Below the pieces are notes generated by a model. That model was not told where the DNA came from, ran no database searches, and saw only the letters and a list, made by a program, of their open reading frames with translations. From the IMG/VR virus record IMGVR_UViG_3300042452_000558, positions 1 to 27,111 of that record: 27,111 nucleotides of DNA; one strand, 5' to 3'. Of this stretch, positions 7,539 to 22,700 are shown in pieces; positions within the stretch are counted from its first letter, which is position 1, and every line of letters starts with the position of its first letter. Origin of the DNA: a virus. Both the position numbers and the translations under genes were made by a program.

Positions 7539-7582
7539 GTTCACCAGCGTTTGACACGGTGAACGCGGCGAGTGAACGCCGC
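7539..7582 (+). promoter_or_regulatory. Tandem hairpins with TTTGACA in one loop and the start codon in the next
   Basis: GTTCACC (7539-7545) pairs perfectly with GGTGAAC (7558-7564). The loop between them contains TTTGACA (7550-7556). GCGGCG (7565-7570) then pairs with CGCCGC (7577-7582), with the GTG start (7572) in its loop. This leader of the small terminase gene looks like a structured translation-control element. Confidence 0.5.
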
Positions 7583-8261: not shown

Positions 8262-8895
8262 GCACGTAGAAACAGAGACGCTTATACCCTACGCCCGCAA
8301 TGCGAAAAAGCATGACGCAGAGCAAGTGGCTAAAATTGCGGGAAGCATCCGGGAATTTGGATTTAACAACCCAGTGCTTATTGATCCAGAAAACGGGATC
8401 ATCGCGGGACATGGCAGAGTGATGGCCGCTCAAAAGCTTGGGCTAACGCAAGTGCCGTGCCTTCGCTTGAGCCACCTAACAGAAATACAAAAGCGCGCCT
8501 ATATCATTGCCGACAACAAGTTGGCAGAAATTGGCGGAGGATGGGACGAAGAAATGCTGAAAGTCGAGGCCATCGACCTTTGCGCAGAAGGATTTGACCT
8601 TGAGGCGTTGGGATTTACAGACGCGGAATCGGATGACTTGCTCAACGGCGAGAAGATTATAGAGGAAGCGGAGGAAAAAATAGAGCACGAGCAGTCTTTG
8701 CAGTTAGAGCCAGAAATGGAATACGTAGTGATCCTCGCTAAAACATTGGAAGAATGGGACGAGATGGTGCAGTGGTTTCAGCTAAAAAAAGTGCGGCGCG
8801 GCGGATACAAACAGGGAAGCGCGTTTGATGCCATAGGCACGGAAAGAGTCCTGACATTTGAAAGGGTCAAAAATGCTTATAGCCATACCAAGTAA
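8236..8895 (+). CDS. ParB/Srx-superfamily protein of the DNA-modification-associated type
   Basis: A 219-residue protein. Residues 13-78 form a ParB N-terminal domain: LIPYARNAKKHDAEQVAKIA, then NNPVLIDPENGIIAGHGRVM with the GHGR motif at 58-61. IIADNKLAEIGGGWD follows at 90-104, typical of ParB-like proteins beside phage methylases and base-modification enzymes. A separate C-terminal domain (about 160-215: EYVVILAKTLEEWDEMVQWF, then IGTERVLTFERV) is also seen in that phage group. These proteins are not plasmid partition factors; roles as nucleases or specificity factors have been proposed. The gene is clearly lower in G+C than its neighbours and overlaps the next gene by 23 bases. Confidence 0.8.
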   Translation: MKTTQTQIEHVETETLIPYARNAKKHDAEQVAKIAGSIREFGFNNPVLIDPENGIIAGHGRVMAAQKLGLTQVPCLRLSHLTEIQKRAYIIADNKLAEIGGGWDEEMLKVEAIDLCAEGFDLEALGFTDAESDDLLNGEKIIEEAEEKIEHEQSLQLEPEMEYVVILAKTLEEWDEMVQWFQLKKVRRGGYKQGSAFDAIGTERVLTFERVKNAYSHTK

Positions 8896-9589
8896 AGGGC
8901 GCGCGGGATTAACGACCTCGGACAAAGTGTTGCCTACAGCAACGATGTTTGTTCCAGAAGGCGAGCTGCATCAATACACAAAGACCAACAAGCACGTTGT
9001 CGGCATTCCCAATGAAGTAAGGGGAATTACTAAAACCAGAAACTGGATACTCAAGAACACCAAAGAGTCGCGGGTGGTCTTTGTTGATGATGACGTAAAA
9101 GTGTGTGGCTATACAAAGCTGTATCGAGAAAACGCAAAACAGAAGAAACTCAAGAGCGAGTCGGTATGGCGCGCGGAGTTTCACAAGCTGTTTGATATGA
9201 CCGAACAACTTGGGTGGAAAGTGTGGGGCCTTAAAACGGAAAGCGCGCTGCGGAGCGTTTACCCATACAAGCCGTTCAATTTTCGCAGCTACGTCACGGC
9301 TTCTTGCATGGGAATAATCAACGACGGAGCAATGTATTTTGACGAGGATTTCCCGGTCAAAGAGGATTACGAAATTTGCTTACGGCACGTAAAAATGCAT
9401 GGTGGCATTTTGGCCGCGCGGCATTTGCATTGGCAAAATGAACATTGGGGAACAGACGGAGGATGCAAAGACTATCGGACAATGACGATGGAAGCGGAGT
9501 GCATCAAAAAGCTGGTTGAGAAATATCCGGGGATGGTGCGGCAGATAACGCGCGGAGGGTGCGCTTATTCTATTGAGTTGAATCTGTAA
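8873..9589 (+). CDS. TET-associated-type glycosyltransferase (TAGT-like)
   Basis: A 238-residue GT-A fold enzyme. It begins MLIAIPSKGRAGLTTSDKVL, has RNWILKNTKESRVVFVDDDV (metal-binding DDD at 72-74), MYFDEDFPVKEDYEICLRHV, and HWQNEHWGTDGG. This pattern matches the TAGT family that Iyer, Aravind and co-workers described beside TET/JBP oxygenases in phages, where it is predicted to glycosylate modified bases. Low G+C (25 of 60 at 9001-9060 against 36 of 60 at 10081-10140 in the terminase) suggests the pair was acquired together. ATG 8873 is preferred over in-frame TTG 8858. The substrate is unknown: DNA base, or less likely protein. Confidence 0.78.
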   Translation: MLIAIPSKGRAGLTTSDKVLPTATMFVPEGELHQYTKTNKHVVGIPNEVRGITKTRNWILKNTKESRVVFVDDDVKVCGYTKLYRENAKQKKLKSESVWRAEFHKLFDMTEQLGWKVWGLKTESALRSVYPYKPFNFRSYVTASCMGIINDGAMYFDEDFPVKEDYEICLRHVKMHGGILAARHLHWQNEHWGTDGGCKDYRTMTMEAECIKKLVEKYPGMVRQITRGGCAYSIELNL

Positions 9590-12626: not shown

Positions 12627-13343
12627 GTGGCCGTCATGGGCCACACGTTCTCTGAGTCTCAACGACTCGACTCCCAGCTATTCCATCACGCTAATCCGCT
12701 TGACGATGCTCGCGTCGATGCGGAGTTGCCGAAAGATTCCCCTGCGGACTTCTGTCTTGATGAAGTAGCGCAAATGCGCGGGGAGATTCACACGCGCCTC
12801 GACGCAATGATGCGCGGCCCTGCCGGGACGCAAGCGGTCTTTGCCTATCTGCAATTCGTCATACGTAAATGCACGGAGGCGGGGATCGCGCAATGGATGG
12901 AGCAGGAGAACGACCAAGGAAGTATCGCGCGCGGGGAAGACGCTATCGTGCTGGCCCTGCAAATGGTCACGCAACTCCTACTCGGAGACGGCGACTCACA
13001 CAAGGTCATGACTGCGCGGCAACAAGCTATGCGGGCGCAGGCTTTGCTTTTTGCCATAGGGCGCACCCGCAAGACAGAGACACAAATCGCGCAGGAGTTT
13101 GGCTATACCCGCGCCAACGTCTCGGCAGTGGTCAAAAACTATCAGCGCAAATTTAAGTTATGGAAGTCGCGCGGCATGAAATCCGACGCCGCCGTCGAAG
13201 TCTATCGTGAACGGGCAAAGCGCGTTCACAGGGAAAACAAAGAAAAACAACAACAATGGAAAACACAGAACAAACACAACTCAGTCAACCGTCTCTTAAC
13301 CTTGAAATCCTCGTTGATGCAGACGCTTGTGCCGCAGAACTAA
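12627..13343 (+). CDS. Helix-turn-helix regulator, sigma-region-4-like
   Basis: A 238-residue protein. Residues about 125-175 (TARQQAMRAQALLFAIGRTR, then KTETQIAQEFGYTRANVSAV) form a convincing helix-turn-helix of the sigma region-4 type, followed by a Lys/Arg/Gln-rich tail. The N-terminal half is helical and unassigned. It could control late transcription or act in DNA packaging; neither is proven. GTG 12627 or the in-frame ATG 12636 may be the start. Its 3' end overlaps the next gene by 88 bases, unusual for this compact genome. The gap before it (12558-12626) carries GGTCA-TT-TGACC (12563-12574), a possible operator. Confidence 0.6.
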   Translation: MAVMGHTFSESQRLDSQLFHHANPLDDARVDAELPKDSPADFCLDEVAQMRGEIHTRLDAMMRGPAGTQAVFAYLQFVIRKCTEAGIAQWMEQENDQGSIARGEDAIVLALQMVTQLLLGDGDSHKVMTARQQAMRAQALLFAIGRTRKTETQIAQEFGYTRANVSAVVKNYQRKFKLWKSRGMKSDAAVEVYRERAKRVHRENKEKQQQWKTQNKHNSVNRLLTLKSSLMQTLVPQN

Positions 13344-13810
13344 AACGCTGCGCGGGCGAAGCCGACAAATGCGCTGCAATGGCGCAAGGATGCGCGGAGA
13401 TTGCAATTCGCCATGCGTGGAACGCTGGCACGATCTGCAACCGCGCCAAGGAAATTGTTCCGCATGGAACATTCAAAGATTGGCTTGAGCAGAACTGCGG
13501 GGATCGCGGCTATCACACAATGCTGAAATGGATGAAGCTGGCAAAAGTTGATTTAAATCTACTTTTGGAAGTGCAAAACGTGAAAAATTTAAAGGAGGCC
13601 TACATTGCCGCAGGCGTCTTGCCAGAACCGGAGGCAAAGACCGAAGGCGGCGAAGGCGAAGCAAAAGACAAGCCGCCTTTCACGCTTACATTCAAAACCA
13701 ACTGGCGCAGCGTCAGCGAATGGAGCCGCGACGCGGCCAAAGACTTTCTTTATGAGTTTGATCGTTTGGCGCAACTAGCGCGCTCGCTCAAAACGGAGTT
13801 TGGTCTGTGA
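13256..13810 (+). CDS. DUF3102-like protein
   Basis: A 184-residue protein. HAWNAGTICNRAKEIVPHGT and FKDWLEQNCGDRGYHTMLKW (about 53-92) match the DUF3102 pattern found in many phages and plasmids, a helical domain resembling DNA-binding or ParB-associated modules. A Glu/Lys/Gly linker (about 122-140) leads to a C-terminal helical part. The ATG is followed at once by a one-mismatch copy of the ACACAGAACA box (13261-13272). It overlaps the previous gene by 88 bases and is coupled to the next by GTGA (13807-13810). Confidence 0.6.
   Translation: MENTEQTQLSQPSLNLEILVDADACAAELKRCAGEADKCAAMAQGCAEIAIRHAWNAGTICNRAKEIVPHGTFKDWLEQNCGDRGYHTMLKWMKLAKVDLNLLLEVQNVKNLKEAYIAAGVLPEPEAKTEGGEGEAKDKPPFTLTFKTNWRSVSEWSRDAAKDFLYEFDRLAQLARSLKTEFGL
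13261..13272 (+). repeat. GAACACAGAACA box 6 (first base changed)
   Basis: AAACACAGAACA, differing from the other five only at the first base, in codons 2-6 after the ATG at 13256. Confidence 0.5.
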
Positions 13811-13917
13811 GCATAGATCGCGTAATGCCCATGCTGCTTTTTGCCTTTGCCGCGATTGGTTTTGTCTGGTCGCTGGAGTGCATAGCGCAAGTCGTGCGGC
13901 AATGGCTTGGGCTGTGA
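13807..13917 (+). CDS. Tiny single-span membrane protein
   Basis: A 36-residue protein from GTG 13807, MSIDRVMPMLLFAFAAIGFV followed by WSLECIAQVVRQWLGL. Residues about 7-28 form one hydrophobic helix. The GTGA overlap with the preceding stop supports translation. A lysis or membrane role is possible but unsupported. Confidence 0.45.
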   Translation: MSIDRVMPMLLFAFAAIGFVWSLECIAQVVRQWLGL

Positions 13918-13920
13918 GGC

Positions 13921-13927
13921 ATTGACA
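13921..13927 (+). promoter_or_regulatory. ATTGACA, variant of the TTTGACA start-site word
   Basis: It ends 14 bases before the ATG at 13942, the same spacing as the six exact TTTGACA copies, and is the only one-mismatch member I assign to the set. Confidence 0.4.
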
Positions 13928-13941
13928 CAAGCAAAGTTGAT

Positions 13942-14235
13942 ATGACCTCCGAATTGGCAGGAATCAGAAAATATCTAAAACGCACCAAGTCTCTTGGAGA
14001 ACTCCAGACTCTTGCTGACGGGCTGTATTCCATAGCTGATTCGGAGGTCACTATCACCTCAACAGGCTTTGAGGGCGGCAGCGCCAGCGGCACGGCCCGG
14101 CGTTACAGCAAGGCCGACATCCTCAACATCGTGGAAGATTTGATCGAAGACCTTGCGCCTTCGATTGAGCCAGTGAAGACGCGTTCGGCGGGCATGGTGT
14201 ATTCCGATTGGAGCGAAGCGCCCGCCCGCCTGTAA
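13942..14235 (+). CDS. gpW-like head completion protein (putative)
   Basis: A 97-residue protein lying directly before the portal, where lambda has gpW. A helix (LGELQTLADGLYSIADS) leads to VTITSTGFEGGSASG and then RRYSKADILNIVEDLIEDLA, ending GMVYSDW. This helix, beta hairpin, helix, tail order resembles gpW, which closes the portal after packaging, though this protein is about 30 residues longer. The assignment rests on position and pattern, not on strong similarity. Confidence 0.5.
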   Translation: MTSELAGIRKYLKRTKSLGELQTLADGLYSIADSEVTITSTGFEGGSASGTARRYSKADILNIVEDLIEDLAPSIEPVKTRSAGMVYSDWSEAPARL

Positions 14236-14242
14236 TTTGACA
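14236..14242 (+). promoter_or_regulatory. TTTGACA start-site word, portal gene
   Basis: Ends 13 bases before GTG 14256. A small hairpin, GCC-GCA-GGC (14247-14255), lies between the word and the start codon. No -10 box at promoter spacing. Confidence 0.55.
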
Positions 14243-14255
14243 GACCGCCGCAGGC

Positions 14256-15743
14256 GTGGCGGAAATTCAAACGAAATCAAAGCGCGGCGGAGCGCGCCCC
14301 GGAGCAGGCAGGCCACGCAAGCCCGATGCCAAAAATGCCGCCTATGAGGCGGGCGAACTTTATCAGCCGGGCAGGACGTTCATCTATATGCCCACGGTGG
14401 AGCCGCGCAACGAGCTTACCAACGGCACGCGGGTCAACATCATGCGGAAGGCGCGATGGCTCTACAACAACGTGGGCCTTGCCGCCCGCGCCGTGGATGG
14501 CGTGGCGCGTTATGTCTGCGGCACGGGCATTATTCCCGCTGCACGCACCTCCGACGATGCGTGGAATAAGCAAGCTGAAGAACTGTTTGAGGATTCCGTA
14601 GGCCGCGAAGCGTTTGGTTTCGACGCGGGCGGTCAGGTCAATTTTTACGAGGCGCAGAGCTTCATCATTCGCCACGTTGCTATCGACGGCGACTTTTTCG
14701 GGCAGTTCATCAAAAGCGAGAGCGGGCGCGCCCTGGTTCGGTTCATGGGAGCCGAGCAAGTGGGCAACGCCTCGACCCCGCTGGCGCAAGACGAATGGCA
14801 AGACGGAGTGCGGACTGACCGCTACGGCAGGCCGACACAATACCGCATCCTTGGCAGCGCCGACGCACAGCGTTTCACCGATGTCTCTGCCGATGACATC
14901 CTGCACTTCCGCCGCCCTGTTCGCATTGGCTACACGCGCAGCCCGTCCTGGCTGGCCCGCGCAGCCCTGCATCTGCACGACATGGCCGATATCGTCAGCT
15001 TCACCAAGCAGACGTTTAAACTGGCAAGCCAGCCCGCCTTTATCATCGAGTCGCCCGACGCCATGCAGATCGGCATGGGGGCCGCGCTCAAGAAGCAGGA
15101 TGCTTCCACGGGCAGCGTGACGCTCGACAAGCTCTACTCGCAATCGGGCGTGGTGCAGTTGCCGCCCGGAAGCAAGTTGCAGCAATTCAAAAACGAGCAT
15201 CCTGGCAACAACTTTCAGCAGTTCCTCGATTTTCTCGCCCGCGACATCTCTTGGGGTATCGGCGTCTCGCCCGAAATGCTTTGGTCGGTGGCCGGGATCG
15301 GCGGGGCAAATACCCGCTATGTGCTGGCCGACGCACAGGTCTTTTTCTCCGAATTGCAGGAATGGCTCATCAATCAATTCTGCCGCCGCTTCTGGAAGTA
15401 TTGGGTCTGGTCGGAGATCCAAGCGGGACGCCTACCGCTGCGTGACGATTGGTGGCGCGTTGATTTCATCCCGCCCGCCCGCGCCACGGTGGACTTTGGC
15501 CGCGATACCAAGGCGCTGTTGGAGATCGTCCGCACGGGCGCAATGTCCACCCGCCGCTTTGCCGAGATGCACGGGCTGGACGAGGAGGCCGAAGAAGATG
15601 CGGCGATTGCCGCCGCGCTTCGCCGCAAAGAGAAGTGCGAGGCCGCAGGGTTGAGCGTCACAGACGTATTCCCGCCCGCGCCGGGCTCGCCTATCACCGC
15701 GCCTGCGGTTGACACGAGCGAAGTGCCGCCTGCCGACGTTTGA
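14256..15743 (+). CDS. Portal protein, lambda gpB family
   Basis: A 495-residue protein of the usual length for lambda-type portals. After a basic Gly/Arg/Pro N-terminus (GGARPGAGRPRKP) it shows the family blocks: VNIMRKARWLYNNVGLAARA with YVCGTGIIP, ADDILHFRRPVRIGYTRSPS, and DFLARDISWGIGVSPEMLWS with GANTRYVLADAQVF. It forms the dodecameric DNA channel and docks the terminase. The GTG start lies 13 bases after TTTGACA, and the stop TGA is itself part of the next TTTGACA copy. Confidence 0.92.
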   Translation: MAEIQTKSKRGGARPGAGRPRKPDAKNAAYEAGELYQPGRTFIYMPTVEPRNELTNGTRVNIMRKARWLYNNVGLAARAVDGVARYVCGTGIIPAARTSDDAWNKQAEELFEDSVGREAFGFDAGGQVNFYEAQSFIIRHVAIDGDFFGQFIKSESGRALVRFMGAEQVGNASTPLAQDEWQDGVRTDRYGRPTQYRILGSADAQRFTDVSADDILHFRRPVRIGYTRSPSWLARAALHLHDMADIVSFTKQTFKLASQPAFIIESPDAMQIGMGAALKKQDASTGSVTLDKLYSQSGVVQLPPGSKLQQFKNEHPGNNFQQFLDFLARDISWGIGVSPEMLWSVAGIGGANTRYVLADAQVFFSELQEWLINQFCRRFWKYWVWSEIQAGRLPLRDDWWRVDFIPPARATVDFGRDTKALLEIVRTGAMSTRRFAEMHGLDEEAEEDAAIAAALRRKEKCEAAGLSVTDVFPPAPGSPITAPAVDTSEVPPADV

Positions 15744-15757
15744 CACCCGCGAGGGTG
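15739..15757 (+). promoter_or_regulatory. TTTGACA word plus GNRA-loop hairpin before the protease gene
   Basis: TTTGACA (15739-15745) contains the portal stop TGA. Starting within it, CACCC-GCGA-GGGTG (15744-15757) forms a 5-bp stem with a GCGA tetraloop, one base before ATG 15759. Confidence 0.6.
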
Positions 15758-15758
15758 C

Positions 15759-16808
15759 ATGACCCAGAAGTGGTATGCGTTTAAAAACTCTTCCGACAAG
15801 AGCGGCGAGGTTGAGCTTTCTATCTACGACGAAATCGGTGCGTTCGGCATCGGCGCAAAAGAGTTTATCGCAGAACTGCGCGAATACAAAGGCCAGCACG
15901 TCCATGTCCGAATTAACTCCCCCGGTGGAGAGATCATTGACGGAAGCGCCATTGCCAACGCGCTGAACCGCCACGAAGGCGGCGTCACTGTCCACATCGA
16001 CGGCCTCGCGGCTTCGATGGCGAGCTACATCGCCATGTCGGGCAAGCCGACTTACATGAGCGAGAACGCGCTGCTCATGATCCACAACCCGTGGACGCTC
16101 GCCGCTGGCGAAGCTGACGATCTTCGCAAGCAAGCCGACTTGCTCGACACGATGAAGTCCACGCTGGTGCGTGGCTATCAGCGCAAGAGCGGGATGCCTG
16201 CCGAAGAGATCAGCAAGCTCATGGACGAAGAAACATGGCTGACGGCGCTGGAAGCCACCGCGCTCGGCTTTGTGGACGCTATCGAAGACGGCATTCCTGC
16301 CGCCGCCAGCGCCAAGGATTTGCGCCACAGGTTTGACACTTTTGCAAAGCGCATGGACGAATCCAATTCCGTCGCTCCCGAAGTCGAAGTCGCCGCGCCT
16401 GCGGTTGAAGTCGCCGTTGAGGAAGCGCCCGCCGCAGTCGAGGCCGAAGTCGCGCCCGAAGTCACAGAAGAGCCCGCCGCCGAAGAGGCCGCGCCCGAAG
16501 CCAGGGCCGACGATTCCGCCGAAAAGCTCGCCGCGCTGGAAGCCGAGAAGGCCGAAGCCATCGCCCGCGCCGAAGCTGCCGAGGCCGAACTTGCCAAAGT
16601 CAAAGACGCTTTCGCCGCGTTGGAGAAATCCGCAGGCGTTTCCGCCGCAACAGTCGCCCCGGTTGCCAAGTCCGAAGAGTCCGACCCCGTGGCGCAGTGG
16701 ATGGCCGCAGTCGAGTCCAAGGACTTCGCGGCCAGCAACAAACTTTACGCCGAGCACAAGAAGGCCATTTGGGCCGCTCGCGCCTCACTTTCCAAAGCCA
16801 CCAGCTAA
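15759..16808 (+). CDS. ClpP-like prohead maturation protease fused to scaffold
   Basis: A 349-residue protein. Residues 1-190 are a ClpP/S14-like serine protease: NSPGG (53-57) at the oxyanion site, nucleophile Ser86 in GLAASMASYI, His109 in LLMIHNPW, and an Asp near 127-130. The rest is an Ala/Glu/Val-rich stretch, a charged coiled coil (about 245-290) and a basic C-terminal helix, which is the layout of a scaffold protein with a capsid-binding tail. It would cleave scaffold and itself during prohead maturation. An in-frame ATG at 16353 preceded by TTTGACA suggests the scaffold is also made separately, as with lambda C/Nu3. Confidence 0.88.
   Translation: MTQKWYAFKNSSDKSGEVELSIYDEIGAFGIGAKEFIAELREYKGQHVHVRINSPGGEIIDGSAIANALNRHEGGVTVHIDGLAASMASYIAMSGKPTYMSENALLMIHNPWTLAAGEADDLRKQADLLDTMKSTLVRGYQRKSGMPAEEISKLMDEETWLTALEATALGFVDAIEDGIPAAASAKDLRHRFDTFAKRMDESNSVAPEVEVAAPAVEVAVEEAPAAVEAEVAPEVTEEPAAEEAAPEARADDSAEKLAALEAEKAEAIARAEAAEAELAKVKDAFAALEKSAGVSAATVAPVAKSEESDPVAQWMAAVESKDFAASNKLYAEHKKAIWAARASLSKATS
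16332..16338 (+). promoter_or_regulatory. TTTGACA word inside the protease gene
   Basis: Lies within coding sequence yet keeps the 14-base spacing to an in-frame ATG (16353). A weak hairpin, CTTT-TGC-AAAG (16339-16349), lies between them. Confidence 0.5.
16353..16808 (+). CDS. Predicted internally initiated scaffold protein (Nu3-like)
   Basis: Starting at Met199 of the protease reading frame (MDESNSVAPEVEV), this 151-residue product would contain only the acidic linker, coiled coil and C-terminal helix. That is what a scaffold needs, and it matches the overlapping lambda C/Nu3 arrangement. The evidence for a real start is the TTTGACA copy 14 bases upstream and the exact position at the domain boundary. 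It remains a prediction. Confidence 0.5.
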   Translation: MDESNSVAPEVEVAAPAVEVAVEEAPAAVEAEVAPEVTEEPAAEEAAPEARADDSAEKLAALEAEKAEAIARAEAAEAELAKVKDAFAALEKSAGVSAATVAPVAKSEESDPVAQWMAAVESKDFAASNKLYAEHKKAIWAARASLSKATS

Positions 16809-16852
16809 GGAAAACCCAACAACCAACAAACCCAACCTAATCAACTAAAGAT

Positions 16853-17704
16853 ATGGCTAACGTATTCGATTCCGGGCTGGTGGTCGCCACCATCTCGCAA
16901 CAGGTTCAGACAGTCTTGGCTAATCGCCTCGCTCCTCTGCGCCTTTTCACCACTGACTTCTCGAACGAAGTCAAGAAAGCTAAGGACACCATTCAGGTGC
17001 CCATCGTCTCGGCAACCAGCGCCACCGCTGTTAACCCGACCAACTTTGAACCCGGCTCCGATGTGACCGTTGGCAAGGCCACCGTCACCTTGGATCATGT
17101 GGCTCAGTTCTTCGGCATCAGCCAGGCGGATCTCGCCCTCGGTCATCGCCTTGAGAACCTCATCAAGATCAACGTGGACGCTCTGGCCGACAAGCTCTGG
17201 AGCATCGCCATTACGCCCGTCACGACCGTGAACTTCGGCGCGGCGACTGTCACCACGACCACGATCACTCCGGGCAGCGGCCACTTGGCCTCGCTGTGGA
17301 GCGCGATCAGCAAATCCACCAGCAAGGGCTTGGTCGTTACTCCGTCGATCTACTCGGCGCTCATCCCGACCAACGCGGACTTCCTGCCGCTTCAAAACGG
17401 TGCTTATGGTTTCGATCAGGGCATCTACTACGCGAACAGCTTCAGCGGTGCGGTCACGGGCCTCGACGGCTTCGCCTGCTCGCGCGAAGCGGTGTGCGTT
17501 GCCTCGGCCAAGCCGATGATCGACCCTGCGGTTTCCTCGCAGTTCCAGATCAGCGACCAAGTTGTCACCCTCGATCAGTTGGGCCTCTCGGTCTACTGGA
17601 ACGTGTGGGGCTCGACCAACAACCGTCAGGTCAACGCTTCCATCGAGCTTATGTTCGGCGCGGCCCCCGGCCTCACGAGCAACACGATGGCGCTGATTAT
17701 CTAG
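16853..17704 (+). CDS. Major capsid protein (HK97 fold)
   Basis: This 283-residue protein is the only gene in the expected major-head slot, after the protease-scaffold. Its opening, SQQVQTVLANRLAPLRLFTT, the strand/loop TIQVPIVSATSATAVNPTNF, and TVTLDHVAQFFGISQADLAL fit the N-arm, E-loop and spine helix of HK97-type capsids. LVVTPSIYSALIPTN and GAYGFDQGIYYANSFSG fit the A-domain. No separate decoration protein lies beside it. The leader (16809-16852) is almost free of G and has no Shine-Dalgarno, consistent with an unstructured, efficiently translated mRNA. Strong hairpins follow the gene. Confidence 0.82.
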   Translation: MANVFDSGLVVATISQQVQTVLANRLAPLRLFTTDFSNEVKKAKDTIQVPIVSATSATAVNPTNFEPGSDVTVGKATVTLDHVAQFFGISQADLALGHRLENLIKINVDALADKLWSIAITPVTTVNFGAATVTTTTITPGSGHLASLWSAISKSTSKGLVVTPSIYSALIPTNADFLPLQNGAYGFDQGIYYANSFSGAVTGLDGFACSREAVCVASAKPMIDPAVSSQFQISDQVVTLDQLGLSVYWNVWGSTNNRQVNASIELMFGAAPGLTSNTMALII

Positions 17705-17719
17705 TTCTGTGTGTTCATC

Positions 17720-17749
17720 CTCCCGGCGGATTGAGTGGACCGCCGGGAG
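17720..17749 (+). terminator. Strong hairpin after the capsid gene
   Basis: CTCCCGGCGG (17720-17729) pairs perfectly over 10 bp with CCGCCGGGAG (17740-17749). Only TTTCACTT follows, so it may protect the capsid mRNA 3' end as well as slow transcription. Confidence 0.65.
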
Positions 17750-17758
17750 TTTCACTTA

Positions 17759-17770
17759 GGTCTTCGGACC
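17759..17770 (+). other. UUCG tetraloop mini-hairpin
   Basis: GGTC-TTCG-GACC, the extra-stable C(UUCG)G loop, lies between the other two hairpins after the capsid gene and may be an RNA stability element. Confidence 0.5.
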
Positions 17771-17773
17771 AAG

Positions 17774-17809
17774 GGGTCACGGTTCCACTCGCCGTGGCCC
17801 TTCCTTTTT
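17774..17809 (+). terminator. Rho-independent terminator before the glycosyltransferase genes
   Basis: GGGTCACGG (17774-17782) pairs with CCGTGGCCC (17792-17800) through one T-G wobble around a 9-base loop, followed by TTCCTTTTT. The next gene begins only eight bases later, so readthrough or attenuation must feed it. Confidence 0.75.
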
Positions 17810-17816
17810 GTAGCAA

Positions 17817-19532
17817 GTGGCGAAAATACATCTCGGCATAATCGCGGGCAACGAAGAGGCCATGATTGGCCGATTCTTGGACTCGTTTCAGCCTCACGTT
17901 GATTCTGTTTCGGTTGTCCGCGCCATCGGAAACCAATCGCCAGACCGAACGCTCGACATCGCCAAAGAGCGCGGCTGCATCGTGGGTGAGTATTGGAACG
18001 CGCCCGACCGCCAATGGGAGCACGTCGACAACTTCGCCGCCGCCCGCAACCAGACCTTTGCCCTGGCCCCCGAAGGCACGGACTTCCTCATGTGGGCCGA
18101 TTGCGATGATTTGCTAGGTGACAGTGGCGCGGCGGTGCTTCGACTCCTTAGAGACGGCAAAGATCCGCAAGCAGATGTGATCTATGCGCCGTATGTGACT
18201 AACGCGGCAGGAAGCTACGCGCGCCGGGTGCGTTTGCTCAAAGCCTCGGCATACGAGAAATGGATTAACGCGGTCCACGAGGACATTGAGCACAAGCCAG
18301 AAAGCAAGCTCATCTGGTCAAATGAATTGCAAGTGATTCATATGCCCGTGAACAACAAGCGGACAAGCGTAGTCCGCAACCGCCGCATCCTTGAAGCCAT
18401 TCCCGAAACCGAGCGCACGGGCCGCGAGTGGTGGTTCCTTTTCCGCGAATGCGAAGTGCAGCAAGACATTCCCAAGGCGCTGGAGGCCGCTGTTATTGCC
18501 ACAGGGCGCGACGATCTGGGCGACGAGGAAAAGTTCTGTGCGTATCAAACCATTGGCCGCTGGCTCAAAGACGTGGACGAAGCCGAGCGCCCCTTGCTTG
18601 AAGCCGTGCGCCTTATGCCGCATCGGCGCGAAGGTTATGCCGAGCTTGCCAAGGTTCACCTAGCTCGCGGCAGCGCAAGCAAAGCCTTGGCCTACGTCAA
18701 CGCGATGGAAGCGCAGCCCATGCCCAACGAACCTAGCTGGACGCATGACGCCTCACTTTTCGGATGGCGGGCGCATGATTTGAAATGCTTGGCCCTAGCA
18801 AAGAACGGCAAGCCCGAAGACGCCAACCGCATCCGCAAAGCATGGCACAAGCGCAACAAGGTGCGCCTTGCCATCGGCCACCCGACTTGTCGCCCAGAAA
18901 AAGCCATTGCGGTGCGGGAAATGGCTTTCTCACGGGCCGCAAAGCCCGACCAGTTGGCGTATTACTTTGGCGTGAACGAAGGCGATAATGACGTTGTGGA
19001 CGCGCTAAAGCATTACCCGCACGCCGTTAGCAAGGCCGTGCCCGAAGGACACGCCTCTGCCGTAGCCAATTACAATGCCGCCGCCCGTGCTGCCGCCGAA
19101 TCGGGGGCGCGCATCTTTGTCATGTTGCAGGATGATCTTTATCCGCCGCACGGATTCGATGAAATGATTGTTCGCGCCTTTGAGGGGCACATGGATTCGC
19201 CAGCCGTGCTGCACTTGCACGATGGATTCCGCAAAGAGGGCGACCCGATCATGGTTGCGATGTGCTACAACTGGCGCTGGTGGCTAGGACGGGAGTGGTT
19301 GCTCTGCCCGGAATACGACGGCTATTGGTCCGATACCGAGTATTCTTTCCGCGCCTACCGCGACACCAAGGTCATCAACGGGCGGCACATCCAACTGTAT
19401 CACGACCACCCGGTGTTCACGGGCGCGGCATCTGACGAGGAATATCAGCGGCAGCAAAACCCGGTTGCCAATGCGCGCGGGCGCGAAATCTTTGTGCGTC
19501 GCAACCCGGACGCCGTAGCGAAAGGCTGGTAA
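17817..19532 (+). CDS. Two-domain glycosyltransferase with central TPR-like region
   Basis: A 571-residue protein. Domain 1 (about 3-180) is a family-2 GT-A glycosyltransferase: IHLGIIAGNEEAMIGRFLDS, RNQTFALAPEGTDFLMWADC, with DCDD at 95-98. Residues about 215-345 form TPR-like helical repeats (LLEAVRLMPHRREGYAELAK). Domain 2 (about 375-571) has another GT-A pattern, ARIFVMLQDDLYPPHGFDEM (QDD at 438-440), with YDGYWSDTEYSFRAY and HIQLYHDHPVF. It lies between the capsid and connector genes, behind a terminator, like a cargo gene. Capsid or virion glycosylation is the simplest idea; modified DNA or host surface sugars are alternatives. The GTG start lacks both start-site words. Confidence 0.75.
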   Translation: MAKIHLGIIAGNEEAMIGRFLDSFQPHVDSVSVVRAIGNQSPDRTLDIAKERGCIVGEYWNAPDRQWEHVDNFAAARNQTFALAPEGTDFLMWADCDDLLGDSGAAVLRLLRDGKDPQADVIYAPYVTNAAGSYARRVRLLKASAYEKWINAVHEDIEHKPESKLIWSNELQVIHMPVNNKRTSVVRNRRILEAIPETERTGREWWFLFRECEVQQDIPKALEAAVIATGRDDLGDEEKFCAYQTIGRWLKDVDEAERPLLEAVRLMPHRREGYAELAKVHLARGSASKALAYVNAMEAQPMPNEPSWTHDASLFGWRAHDLKCLALAKNGKPEDANRIRKAWHKRNKVRLAIGHPTCRPEKAIAVREMAFSRAAKPDQLAYYFGVNEGDNDVVDALKHYPHAVSKAVPEGHASAVANYNAAARAAAESGARIFVMLQDDLYPPHGFDEMIVRAFEGHMDSPAVLHLHDGFRKEGDPIMVAMCYNWRWWLGREWLLCPEYDGYWSDTEYSFRAYRDTKVINGRHIQLYHDHPVFTGAASDEEYQRQQNPVANARGREIFVRRNPDAVAKGW

Positions 19533-20158
19533 TGGATAAGCCGAAAGCCTTGGCGAATATGCCCGACGAGCGGCAGGCCAAACTTTTTGAGGTGCTGATT
19601 CCCACCATGCCTGGGCGGGAGTTTATGCTGTCGCAACTGATGTCTGTGCTTGAGCCGCAGTTTGCGCGCTGGCCTCAAGCTACTTTCACCGCCGATTGGG
19701 GTGAGGGAAGTATAGGGGCCAAGCGGCAACGCATGATTGAGACCAGCAAGGCCGAGTATGTGGCCTTTGTGGATGACGATGACATGGTTTCGCCAGACTA
19801 CCTCGACCGAATCATGCCCTGTCTACAAAGCCACCCGGACTGTGTCGGTATTTCCATGCACGTCACGATGGACGGGCGCGATTGGCATCCATCGCCCATC
19901 TTTCGCCATTCCCTCCGCTTTCGAGAAAACTTCCAGTGGCACGGCCAAGATCGCACCCCACACCACCTTTGCCCACTGAAACGAGAAATCGCCGTCCGCT
20001 CGCGGTTTCCCGATCTGATGTGGGGCGAGGATTACAGTTTTGCTTTGGGGCTACTAACCAACCTCCAGACTGAGGAATGGAGCGGCGATGAACCGCTTTA
20101 TTTTTACAACTACGTCTCAAAGAAGGGCGACCCGCCTACACCTAGCCAACACCTTTGA
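19532..20158 (+). CDS. Small family-2 glycosyltransferase
   Basis: A 208-residue single-domain GT-A enzyme. FEVLIPTMPGREFMLSQLMS opens the nucleotide-sugar fold, GSIGAKRQRMIETSKAEYVA precedes the metal-binding DDDD (81-84) in FVDDDDMVSPDYL, and SRFPDLMWGEDYSFALGLL near residue 165 supplies the acidic acceptor-site motif. It is short for the family and probably lacks acceptor-specific additions. It overlaps the previous stop by one base (TAATG) and so forms a pair with it. Its TGA stop lies in the TTTGACA word that leads the next structural gene. Confidence 0.78.
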   Translation: MDKPKALANMPDERQAKLFEVLIPTMPGREFMLSQLMSVLEPQFARWPQATFTADWGEGSIGAKRQRMIETSKAEYVAFVDDDDMVSPDYLDRIMPCLQSHPDCVGISMHVTMDGRDWHPSPIFRHSLRFRENFQWHGQDRTPHHLCPLKREIAVRSRFPDLMWGEDYSFALGLLTNLQTEEWSGDEPLYFYNYVSKKGDPPTPSQHL

Positions 20159-20160
20159 CA
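20154..20160 (+). promoter_or_regulatory. TTTGACA start-site word, connector gene
   Basis: Contains the stop TGA of the glycosyltransferase gene and ends 13 bases before GTG 20174. No evident hairpin at this copy. Confidence 0.55.
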
Positions 20161-20173
20161 GTAGCCTTCAAAC

Positions 20174-20491
20174 GTGAACCAAGCGGCCCTCACATCGTTT
20201 GCCACCGCAATGGCAAAAAGCATTCGCGACCTTTACGGCTCCACCGTAACCATCGGCGGAACCAATTACACGGCGGCGGTTGCTACTGGCGAGCCAGCCT
20301 TTGACCTCGAGTCTGGCGGCTTCCGCAGCCCGGTGAGCTTTGTTGTCCGCGTGCTGAAGCAGGACATGGCAACCGCCCCGGTTCCCAAAACTGCCGTGGT
20401 CATCAACAGCAAAAACTACCGAGTCATGTCGGTGCGCCAGAATTTTAGCGCCGTGGCGCAAGAGTGGATTATTGAGGTTGAAACTCCATGA
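20174..20491 (+). CDS. Head-tail connector protein (putative)
   Basis: A 105-residue protein with mostly beta character (STVTIGGTNYTAAVATGEPA, then VSFVVRVLKQDM, then TAVVINSKNYRVMSVRQNFS). The size and the position after the capsid resemble lambda gpFII-type attachment proteins. It is followed by two genes joined through 4-base overlaps that precede the tail tube. Position is the main support. Confidence 0.55.
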   Translation: MNQAALTSFATAMAKSIRDLYGSTVTIGGTNYTAAVATGEPAFDLESGGFRSPVSFVVRVLKQDMATAPVPKTAVVINSKNYRVMSVRQNFSAVAQEWIIEVETP

Positions 20492-20907
20492 ACCCGTGCG
20501 AGATCGAACTAGGCGTGGCGGGCTACCTTGAATCGGTGATTACAATCCCAGCCAACACGCAATTCTTGGAAGCGGTCAATGCCGACGCGATGGACTTGGA
20601 AAAGCAAGCCGTGGTTGCCCGCGCTGAAAACGTCGAATATCGGGGAGCCACCAGCTTTGTCGCCACTCTTGAAATTGCCGTCCGCAGCCCGGCTACAGTC
20701 TTCACTCGCGCCAACCACAGCGACCTCGTCAAAAAAGTCACCACGGCCCTGCAAAACGAGGGGGCTTTTGTCACTGCGTTTAATAACGCCACCACTGGCA
20801 TGGACATGATGGGCGTTGCCCCGGTCAACTACCGCGCCCCGGAGTTCGACAATCGAGCGTGGGTCAACGTGATCAGTGTTGACTGCGGCATTTTGCAAAC
20901 GCCGTGA
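20488..20907 (+). CDS. Tail terminator / minor tail protein (putative)
   Basis: A 139-residue mixed alpha/beta protein. AENVEYRGATSFVATLEIAV and SPATVFTRANHSDLVKKVTT resemble the small tail-completion proteins (gpU-like) that cap the tail tube and join it to the head. The ATGA overlap (20488-20491) and the following GTGA (20904-20907) put it in a tight three-gene connector cluster. The exact counterpart is uncertain. Confidence 0.5.
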   Translation: MNPCEIELGVAGYLESVITIPANTQFLEAVNADAMDLEKQAVVARAENVEYRGATSFVATLEIAVRSPATVFTRANHSDLVKKVTTALQNEGAFVTAFNNATTGMDMMGVAPVNYRAPEFDNRAWVNVISVDCGILQTP

Positions 20908-21566
20908 CCACGCTTGAAGTAGAGACAGAAAAATTCAAAGAGGCGTTTGCGCGGTTTCAACAAACCAGCAAGCGGTCAGTGGCGACAAACCTACGCCAGC
21001 AAGGCAAACTGATCGCGGTAGACATCGCCAAACGCACGCCTCCGGGCGATTTTCAAGCATCGGGGTGGAAAAGGGTTGCTGGCGAGAACGCCGTTAAGGG
21101 CGACATTGCCAAGATCATGCGGCCTTGGAACAACCCGAAAGCACGCACCGATCCGCAACGCATCCATAAAGAATACAAACGAAAGAGAGGAAGGGTTCAG
21201 ACCAGGCTAAAGCGAAACAAGGACGAGCGTTTCCGCATAGATACCCAAACTTACAAGATATACGTTGAACAAATTCGCAATCGCGTCGGCTACATGGCCG
21301 CAGGATGGGCCAAGGCAGCGGCATTTTTAGGCGCTTCGTTGCCGAATTGGATCACGCGCCACAGCGCGCCGGGCACAGGCAATGTTGTCATTCGCGGTGA
21401 GGACATTGAGTTAGACCTTACAAACAACGCCGTCTATCCCGACTCGCGCGGCCTTGTCGACCGCCGTGCCGTTGCCGCGCTCAAAAAACGCTATTGGGCC
21501 ATGATAAAACAGGCCGACAATTATCTAAAGAAAGCAGCCCAAGAAGCAGGCTTCAACGCCTCCTAG
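20904..21566 (+). CDS. Tail completion protein, gpZ/HK97 gp10-like (putative)
   Basis: A 220-residue protein, strongly basic in the middle (IHKEYKRKRGRVQTRLKRNK). The opening FARFQQTSKRSVATNLRQQG with DIAKRTPPGDFQASGW matches the start of phage minor tail/neck proteins, where a long helix precedes a T-P-x-G motif. It sits just before the tail-tube gene, the usual place. An internal segment rich in Ala and Trp (GYMAAGWAKAAAFLG) may pack in the connector. Confidence 0.6.
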   Translation: MTTLEVETEKFKEAFARFQQTSKRSVATNLRQQGKLIAVDIAKRTPPGDFQASGWKRVAGENAVKGDIAKIMRPWNNPKARTDPQRIHKEYKRKRGRVQTRLKRNKDERFRIDTQTYKIYVEQIRNRVGYMAAGWAKAAAFLGASLPNWITRHSAPGTGNVVIRGEDIELDLTNNAVYPDSRGLVDRRAVAALKKRYWAMIKQADNYLKKAAQEAGFNAS

Positions 21567-21569
21567 CCG

Positions 21570-21590
21570 TTTGACAAAGCCCGCGAGGGC
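21570..21590 (+). promoter_or_regulatory. TTTGACA word plus GNRA-loop hairpin before the tail-tube gene
   Basis: TTTGACA (21570-21576) is followed by GCCC-GCGA-GGGC (21579-21590), a 4-bp stem with a GCGA tetraloop that directly abuts ATG 21591. It closely resembles the leader at 15739-15757. Confidence 0.6.
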
Positions 21591-22136
21591 ATGGCTATCA
21601 GCTACGGTTCCAGCGCAGACGGAAAACAAATCGCCAAGTCTTATGAATGGCTGGCCGTTCAGGACAACCAAGGTGCTGTTGCCGACAACATCCTCAAGCA
21701 CACCCGCACCGAAACCACGACTGAAACCGTGGAATCAACTTGGGGTTGCCCGACTTTGGATAGCGAAGAAGTGCTCAACGCTACCGTCACTTGGACCGTG
21801 GACGAGGCGCTTGTTGAGGCTTCTGCCAGCGGAACGGCTCCGCAGGCTATCCGGTATTACAATCCAAAGGCCGAGTGCTCGGTCACTTACTTGGGGAGCT
21901 CCAACCAGGACAGCACTTTTACTTTCGACAGCGTCGAGTTTGAAACCGTCTCAAGCGAAGTCGCAGAAACTTTGGGCGATGTGCAAAAGGTGACCGTGCG
22001 CGGCGTTGCTTACGGCGCGACCAACGGCCTTACCACTGGCACAGCCTCCAGCGGCACGATCCGCAAAGAGAAGCGTTTTTCCAACACCGACTTCGTCCGC
22101 ACCTCGACAACCACTGTCGCCTTTAGCGGTTCCTAA
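21591..22136 (+). CDS. Major tail (tube) protein (putative)
   Basis: A 181-residue protein, almost all beta and rich in Thr/Ser/Val (TTTETVESTWGCPTLDSEEV, then VTYLGSSNQDSTFTFDSVEF), followed by VTVRGVAYGA. Length and composition match siphovirus tube proteins, and it is followed by a probable chaperone and the tape measure, the standard order. The start is preceded by the TTTGACA/hairpin leader. Confidence 0.65.
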   Translation: MAISYGSSADGKQIAKSYEWLAVQDNQGAVADNILKHTRTETTTETVESTWGCPTLDSEEVLNATVTWTVDEALVEASASGTAPQAIRYYNPKAECSVTYLGSSNQDSTFTFDSVEFETVSSEVAETLGDVQKVTVRGVAYGATNGLTTGTASSGTIRKEKRFSNTDFVRTSTTTVAFSGS

Positions 22137-22140
22137 GGAG
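22135..22140 (+). promoter_or_regulatory. Shine-Dalgarno AAGGAG, rare in this window
   Basis: AAGGAG lies eight bases before ATG 22149. It is the only strong Shine-Dalgarno I found at a gene start here, which shows the host ribosome probably can use one and makes the other start-site words more notable. Confidence 0.6.
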
Positions 22141-22148
22141 CAGCGCCA

Positions 22149-22700
22149 ATGGATGCGCTGGCCGCTGAAGCGTTCCTAAACGCCGAGCATTCTGTTTACG
22201 GGCTGCGGATGCGCCCGCTGTCGCTCGGCCATGCCTTTGCTTTAGAGGCTATCGGTTCACCATTTTACACAGGGGCGCTCGGTGACGCCTCGCAGCTTCG
22301 TTTGGCGGCGTGGATATGTTCCCGGCCCGCGTTGTCGTCTTTTGATGCTTCCGGGCTGCGGTTTCGTCTTTGGTCGTATTTGGCGGGAAAAATGGATTTC
22401 GACACACAGGCCGCGCGGTGGGCCGTCTATGTTGCCGATTATTGCGCGCCTCCGCAGTTTTGGAGCAAGCAGACCAAAGAAAAAGCCGAGCCGTCTAAGA
22501 TTCCATCAGCCATCACTACGGTTGTGCGCCTTATGCGCTTGGGGATGACCGAGCGCGAGGCATGGCAAACGCCCGTGGGCGCGGCCTCATGGTATGAGAT
22601 TGCCGCTTACGAAACCGAGACGGGCAACAAATTAGACATTGTGACCGACAGCGAGCGGATCGCGATCATCCGCCAGAAAGCAAAACGCAAAAATGGCTGA
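22149..22700 (+). CDS. Tail assembly chaperone (putative)
   Basis: A 183-residue, mainly helical protein between the tube and tape-measure genes, where siphoviruses encode assembly chaperones. MRPLSLGHAFALEAIGSPF opens it, and VRLMRLGMTEREAWQTPVGA with YEIAAYETETGNKLDI near the end is typical of such proteins. No canonical -1 slippery heptamer is seen at the 3' end, so a frameshifted second form is not supported. It overlaps the tape-measure start by eight bases. Confidence 0.55.
   Translation: MDALAAEAFLNAEHSVYGLRMRPLSLGHAFALEAIGSPFYTGALGDASQLRLAAWICSRPALSSFDASGLRFRLWSYLAGKMDFDTQAARWAVYVADYCAPPQFWSKQTKEKAEPSKIPSAITTVVRLMRLGMTEREAWQTPVGAASWYEIAAYETETGNKLDIVTDSERIAIIRQKAKRKNG

Follow-up and report, generated by a model that had tools for sequence, protein, structure and literature searches.

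A seven-nucleotide word, TTTGACA, looks like a start signal for many late genes of a Verrucomicrobia phage family, and comparative sequence evidence makes it very probable that one copy, inside the capsid maturation protease gene, allows the back half of that gene to be made as a separate scaffold protein through an internal start. The account that we favor, at somewhat above even confidence, is that of a late-gene start signal of this phage clade that yields a nested scaffold mRNA, with transcription initiation as its likeliest mode of action.

The window, which is the whole stretch of DNA analyzed, spans the 27,111 bases of an uncultivated virus record, and its plus strand carries genes for an integrase, Erf/exonuclease recombination, terminase, portal, ClpP-like protease, capsid, and tail. 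The nearest cultured phage, judged by the protease, is Verrucomicrobia phage P8625 (52% identity over residues 2 to 184), and the nearest cellular loci are in Verrucomicrobia MAGs (L124-L126). The protease gene lies between the portal gene and a major capsid candidate that rests on a weak PHROG match, and Pfam CLP_protease covers protease residues 43 to 175 (E 4.5e-33). The features of this region are the following.

14256-15743, plus strand: portal gene, with a GTG start at 14256
15759-16808, plus strand: capsid maturation protease of 349 aa (PHROG head maturation protease, E 1.2e-73), whose C-terminal part would be the scaffold
16332-16338, plus strand: internal TTTGACA at codons 192 to 194 (TTT GAC ACT), in frame with the open reading frame 15759-16808
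16353, plus strand: predicted 5′ end of a leaderless mRNA, from the fixed pyrimidine-purine pattern
16353-16808, plus strand: predicted scaffold product of its own, 151 aa from Met199 to the stop codon (pI 4.33)
16853-17704, plus strand: major capsid protein candidate (ATG 16853; weak PHROG major head protein match, E 0.0014)

Opposite the protease gene, a 441-aa open frame on the minus strand (15432-16757) is probably a high-GC by-product. Two glycosyltransferase genes (17817-20158) are flanked by the major capsid gene on one side and head-closure-like genes on the other, and several relatives carry the same pair at the same place. A TET-associated glycosyltransferase (TAGT) domain at 8858-9589 adjoins a ParB-like gene, and DNA hypermodification is a possible role for it.

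Fourteen bases (16339-16352) separate the internal TTTGACA from the in-frame ATG 16353, which is Met199 of 349. The coordinates are exactly those of a preliminary description, which had proposed an internal start here for a second product of 151 residues, and the translation of 16353-16808 has that length. Its further claim, that Met199 marks the boundary between the ClpP-like domain and an acidic, coiled-coil scaffold part, is about right. In an AlphaFold2 model of the protease built from 41 sequences (mean pLDDT 67, pTM 0.52), which superseded an earlier model from 11 sequences (pTM 0.32), the confident ClpP-like fold stops near residue 177, a helix is predicted over residues 185 to 202, pLDDT stays below 50 over residues 199 to 253, and further helices are predicted at residues 252 to 291 and 310 to 348. 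Because the confident fold ends near residue 177, Met199 would lie approximately 22 residues beyond it, where the disordered acidic part begins, and the modeled domain boundary, near residues 177 to 199, would thus hold an in-frame internal start codon. The pI is 4.33 from Met199 to the end vs 5.25 for residues 1 to 198. We infer both the scaffold function of the Met199-to-end product and its abundance.

Protease relatives were collected with six protease patterns, among them FDTFAKRM, the peptide of the word itself, and with a capsid query. The collection comprised 84 distinct sequences, 77 of them full length (7 were dropped as short or without a stop). Loci found with capsid queries or with LMIHNPW/SMAS[VY]IAM agree with the FDTFAKRM-found set; retrieval with LMIHNPW/SMAS[VY]IAM located the internal-site word in MAG loci L124-L126 and not in L127. 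TTT-GAC-A is identical at the same codons in 66 of the 77 full-length relatives. The word device is not universal for the protease family, since the other 11, a P8625-like clade, are without it. Phe192 is TTT in all 66 word-bearing relatives, whereas other Phe codons are TTT in 183 of 519 cases (35%), and Asp193 is GAC in 66/66. Residue 194 varies (T in 29, K in 25, N in 9, and S in 3), yet the A that follows TTTGAC is constant. Codons 192 and 193 are the sole invariant ones among 93 conserved codon columns. Loss of the word or the ATG from close homologues, the observation that the preliminary description had set against its own proposal, was looked for, and every one of the 66 word-bearing relatives keeps both: an in-frame ATG falls within codons +7 to +10 in 66/66, at a distance from the word of 14 nt (30 sequences), 17 nt (16), 20 nt (11), or 23 nt (9). 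Control four-codon windows hold an ATG in 223/10478 cases downstream (2.1%) and in 1100/5805 upstream (18.9%). The ATG shifts by whole codons, as two products sharing one frame require, and because it moves in this way Met199 itself is not invariant although an in-frame ATG is. These 66 relatives form 28 clusters at 90% identity, and the word and ATG are retained down to approximately 42% protein identity.

Such a pattern could arise if an F-D-x-F-A-K peptide were kept for the protease or its linker, with the codons set by chance and no second product, and residues F192, D193, and F195 are indeed invariant in an 11-sequence alignment. We consider a constraint on the protein alone highly improbable, however: codons 192 and 193 are fixed, but F195 is TTC in 47 sequences and TTT in 18; residue 194 changes with its first base fixed; the same word precedes many other genes; the in-frame ATG is always present; and P8625-like proteases lack the peptide. 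On comparative grounds, the internal word appears beyond reasonable doubt to be a conserved element under selection at the nucleotide level, and this conservation strongly predicts that a further product is made in frame from Met199.

The same word, or a variant of it, occurs elsewhere in the window.

7550-7556, plus strand: TTTGACA, 15 nt before GTG 7572 of a gene that is weakly terminase-small-subunit-like
13922-13927, plus strand: TTGACA (no first T), 14 nt before ATG 13942, as read from the start context
14236-14242, plus strand: TTTGACA, 13 nt before the portal GTG 14256
15739-15745, plus strand: TTTGACA, 13 nt before the protease ATG 15759, including the TGA stop of the portal gene
16789-16795, plus strand: variant word TTTCCAA, 20 to 21 nt ahead of the point where the major capsid gene's leader opens with GGAAAACCC, with a putative role
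16809-16852, plus strand: A/C-rich leader of the major capsid gene, with a predicted 5′ end at 16809/16810
20154-20160, plus strand: TTTGACA, 13 nt before GTG 20174, including the TGA stop of the upstream gene
21570-21576, plus strand: TTTGACA, 14 nt before ATG 21591

The six TTTGACA copies per se are unsurprising by count (3.24 expected, with 6 reached in 11 of 100 shuffles). Their strand and placement are not chance, as 6/6 lie on the plus strand, each 13 to 15 nt before a start codon. At the capsid gene the window has TTTCCAA in place of TTTGACA, and close relatives keep TTTC[CT]AA with the same leader start.

Beyond the window, 105 loci chosen through the protease and capsid searches were reduced by shared 40-mers to 47 nonredundant loci (58 dropped; 657 kb), which carry TTTGACA 235 times on the gene strand vs 8 times on the other. 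An ATG or GTG that opens a frame of at least 60 codons follows 11 to 23 nt later in 183 of 234 usable copies, at exactly 13 nt in 87 and at 14 nt in 53. Another 30 of the 234 have no start codon within 44 nt, and most of those shown are capsid-type leaders or short genes; ahead of capsid-type genes, words lie at 36 to 59 nt. An unsupervised k-mer scan recovered TTTGACA at −20/−21 in 133/233 copies, together with the sister group variants TTTGACT and GTTGACA at −20 to −22. Seven phage records hold their copies mainly in the portal-to-tail region, with others preceding genes that lie beyond the head block. Four MAG genomes rule out a general use of the word by hosts, as TTTGACA-N12-14-ATG is not enriched in them (46 vs 62 with the control spacing N28-30).

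Several familiar elements were tried and rejected as identities for the word. A sigma-70 promoter, with TTGACA as its −35 element, is opposed by a consensus scan of 13000-22500, which found no −10 hexamer 16 to 18 nt after the words, and by the word-aligned profile of the 47 loci, which has no −10 element. No AGGAGG-type Shine-Dalgarno sequence precedes 16353, and none of five host-family 16S genes contains a complement of the word. The 13-bp GGGATAGGAGCCC of the cluster K start-associated sequences was absent, by eye, from the start contexts of the window. A boxA consists of GCTC before a TTTGACA/TTTAACA core, and GCTCTTTGACA, which includes the phage word, lies approximately 196 nt before the 16S gene in a host-family rRNA leader (L231). 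It seems nonetheless very doubtful that the phage word is a boxA-like antitermination element binding NusB-S10: the GCTC part is missing at the phage words, since the preceding bases are not conserved (position −1 is A in 27, C in 27, G in 25, and T in 19), and antitermination does not require each gene to have a site at a set distance from its start codon.

A fixed pyrimidine-purine step downstream of the word points to what the signal may do. Counting from the start of the word, index 20 or 21 is a G in all 31 long-leader sites, most of which belong to the capsid gene or to one other late structural gene, and AA and CC usually follow this G. Its position is that of the start codon in the genes with spacings of 13 and 14. 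Where word and start codon are 15 nt or more apart (95 sites, reduced to 48 representatives), the step lies between indices 19 and 20 or 20 and 21 in 43/48, against an average background of 46%; any other place has it in at most 34/48. The binomial p for 43/48 is 4e-10, a value that treats related sites as independent. Step-bearing sites with the start elsewhere comprise long capsid-gene leaders, tail genes, and shifted internal starts, and with the site classes taken separately the fractions are 0.88, 0.90, and 0.97. On this pattern, the most probable effect of the word is to place an mRNA 5′ end 13 to 14 nt downstream of it.

Stray copies of the word appear to be avoided. In coding regions, antisense TGTCAA occurs 20 times vs 64.7 expected (sd 6.1, synonymous shuffles); in two MAG hosts, observed and expected counts are 27/22.7 and 11/22.0, with some depletion in host G002. 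Sense TTGACA in coding sequence precedes a start codon in 72 of 95 cases, and the remaining sense and antisense copies together stand at 0.245 of expectation, a value below which only 6 of 1742 word pairs fall, although numerous other words are likewise depleted on both strands. Depletion on both strands favors a signal at the DNA level, because a signal in RNA only need not be avoided in antisense. As a separate observation, GTAC is absent from the window (approximately 100 expected) and from the P8625 locus examined (L123, 27,892 bases), with 12 vs 836 expected in the coding regions of relatives and 0 of 245 and 1 of 262 in genes sampled from Verrucomicrobia MAGs G001 and G002. The palindromes GACGTC, GGGCCC, and CTGCAG and the AGGTCC/AGGACC words are also strongly depleted in the coding regions of relatives; the depleted palindromes suggest restriction pressure.

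These results bear on whether the signal acts in translation, with a protein of the phage or its host reading the word to recruit ribosomes independently of a Shine-Dalgarno sequence, and with the scaffold made by internal initiation like that of Nu3. The tight spacing of 13 to 14 nt to start codons is consistent with such an element, as is the scarcity of Shine-Dalgarno sites, which most window genes lack and which precede 15 to 17% of starts, by a rough count, in two MAG hosts. Some Verrucomicrobia are described as poor in Shine-Dalgarno sites despite normal 16S ends (PMC10783764). Hairpins of 5 to 7 bp touch the ATG at about seven late-gene sites with a spacing of 20 to 21 and would suit a role at the RNA level; such sites include L247:17977, L125:20166, L126:18570, L235:7999, L235:9686, and L239:268, and their hairpin sequences differ. 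A hairpin between word and start was rejected, as 131 distinct spacers have a mean folding energy of −0.94 vs −0.83 when shuffled (p 0.63). For a stem touching the start, the observed value was reached in 14/400 recombinations at spacing 13 (a small excess), in 369/400 at spacing 14 (none), and in 5/400 at spacings of 18 to 22 (some). The hairpin is not needed for the core claim. A role in translation nevertheless seems unlikely to us: it leaves unexplained both the fixed pyrimidine-purine step where the start codon lies elsewhere and the words 36 to 59 nt before capsid-type genes, TGTCAA is found in 0/5 host-family 16S genes, host genes make no use of the word, and antisense depletion is not expected of an RNA signal.

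Cleavage of RNA would also make a 5′ end. If an endonuclease read UUUGACA in a long late transcript and cut 13 to 14 nt downstream, leaderless messages would be freed, that of the scaffold included, and the fixed pyrimidine-purine distance, the strand bias, and the GC-rich spacers would be accounted for. A GC-rich stretch is indeed often found just before the proposed 5′ end (e.g., CGCCCGCCGAGGC) and counts against a promoter, because it is unfavorable for DNA melting. A cut within the protease message would, however, destroy that message, the antisense-strand depletion is not predicted, and no such phage nuclease was identified; we regard RNA processing as quite improbable.

A promoter would fit the comparative pattern better than a ribosome-binding element, and an RNA-cleavage signal appears less likely than a promoter. 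The proposed signal consists of TTTGACA, 13 to 14 bp, and a pyrimidine-purine step where the 5′ end of the mRNA would form, most likely by transcription initiation. We infer a transcription start at this 5′ end, leaderless translation, and a factor that reads the word, which may be a polymerase or a sigma-like factor; a search of 20 phage records for sigma-70 region 4.2 gave no match above the cutoff, and the early-region open reading frames gave no convincing regulator match. When the spacing is 13 or 14, the start codon itself begins with this purine, so late genes with ATG or GTG on it would have leaderless mRNAs. In the capsid gene and one more late structural gene of the more distant relatives, the purine would be followed by an A/C-rich leader. 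A 5′ end set inside the protease gene would give the scaffold its own short-leader or leaderless transcript: the copy there is predicted to yield a nested, 3′-coterminal mRNA starting at 16353, which would encode the acidic coiled-coil scaffold (151 aa) and no more, so that the scaffold would be made besides the protease-scaffold fusion. The more specific proposal of a phage-specific single-element promoter class, with leaderless late mRNAs starting at numerous sites across the late region and a UL26.5-like nested scaffold transcript in a tailed phage, seems to us evenly balanced.

In a phage group that has no close cultured relative, the comparison predicts an exact 5′ end and an exact N terminus for a second protein of capsid assembly. 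In uncultured Verrucomicrobia phages, the word could be used to locate late genes and to identify true start codons. If the promoter reading is true, late genes would be under a control device of a new kind, and the herpesvirus protease/scaffold gene with its nested promoter would have a phage counterpart.

Phage P8625 has neither the internal word nor the word system, and the terms "promoter" and "protease" are not present in the main text of its genome paper (PMC4642752). Our literature search found no paper in which TTTGACA is described as a motif of phages and nothing on in-frame internal protease/scaffold starts of the Nu3 type. The start-associated sequences of cluster K mycobacteriophages are described as short, almost one-stranded repeats before many starts, absent from the host, sometimes holding an upstream stop codon and with their function left open; the 13-bp repeat lies 3 to 7 nt before the start of nonstructural genes and has a Shine-Dalgarno core (PMC3203893). 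TTTGACA resembles them in being short and almost one-stranded, in lying upstream of many starts, in sometimes including an upstream stop, and in not being used by the host. It differs in its position 13 to 14 nt before the start, in having no Shine-Dalgarno core, and in serving late genes and a site inside a gene.

In lambda, the overlap of C and Nu3 was reportedly described by Shaw and Murialdo in 1980, Nu3 is described as the scaffold, and its start is translational, inside the C message. The preliminary description held that the scaffold arises in just this way. The likeness of layout stands, in that a ClpP/S49-type protease follows the portal, its C-terminal part is reused as scaffold through an in-frame internal start (here predicted), and the nested gene lies beside the major capsid gene. 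The likeness of mechanism is not supported: the 7-nt word found here is specific to the clade and shows signs of determining where an mRNA begins. Tailed phages and herpesviruses share a common capsid fold, and the herpesvirus protease fold differs from the ClpP-like fold. In herpesvirus UL26/UL26.5, the promoter, transcript, and start of the scaffold are described as lying inside the protease-scaffold gene, in frame and 3′-coterminal (PMC4498786, PMC2949831). The promoter proposed here would likewise be nested in the protease gene; the host domain differs, and the analogy is one of mechanism only.
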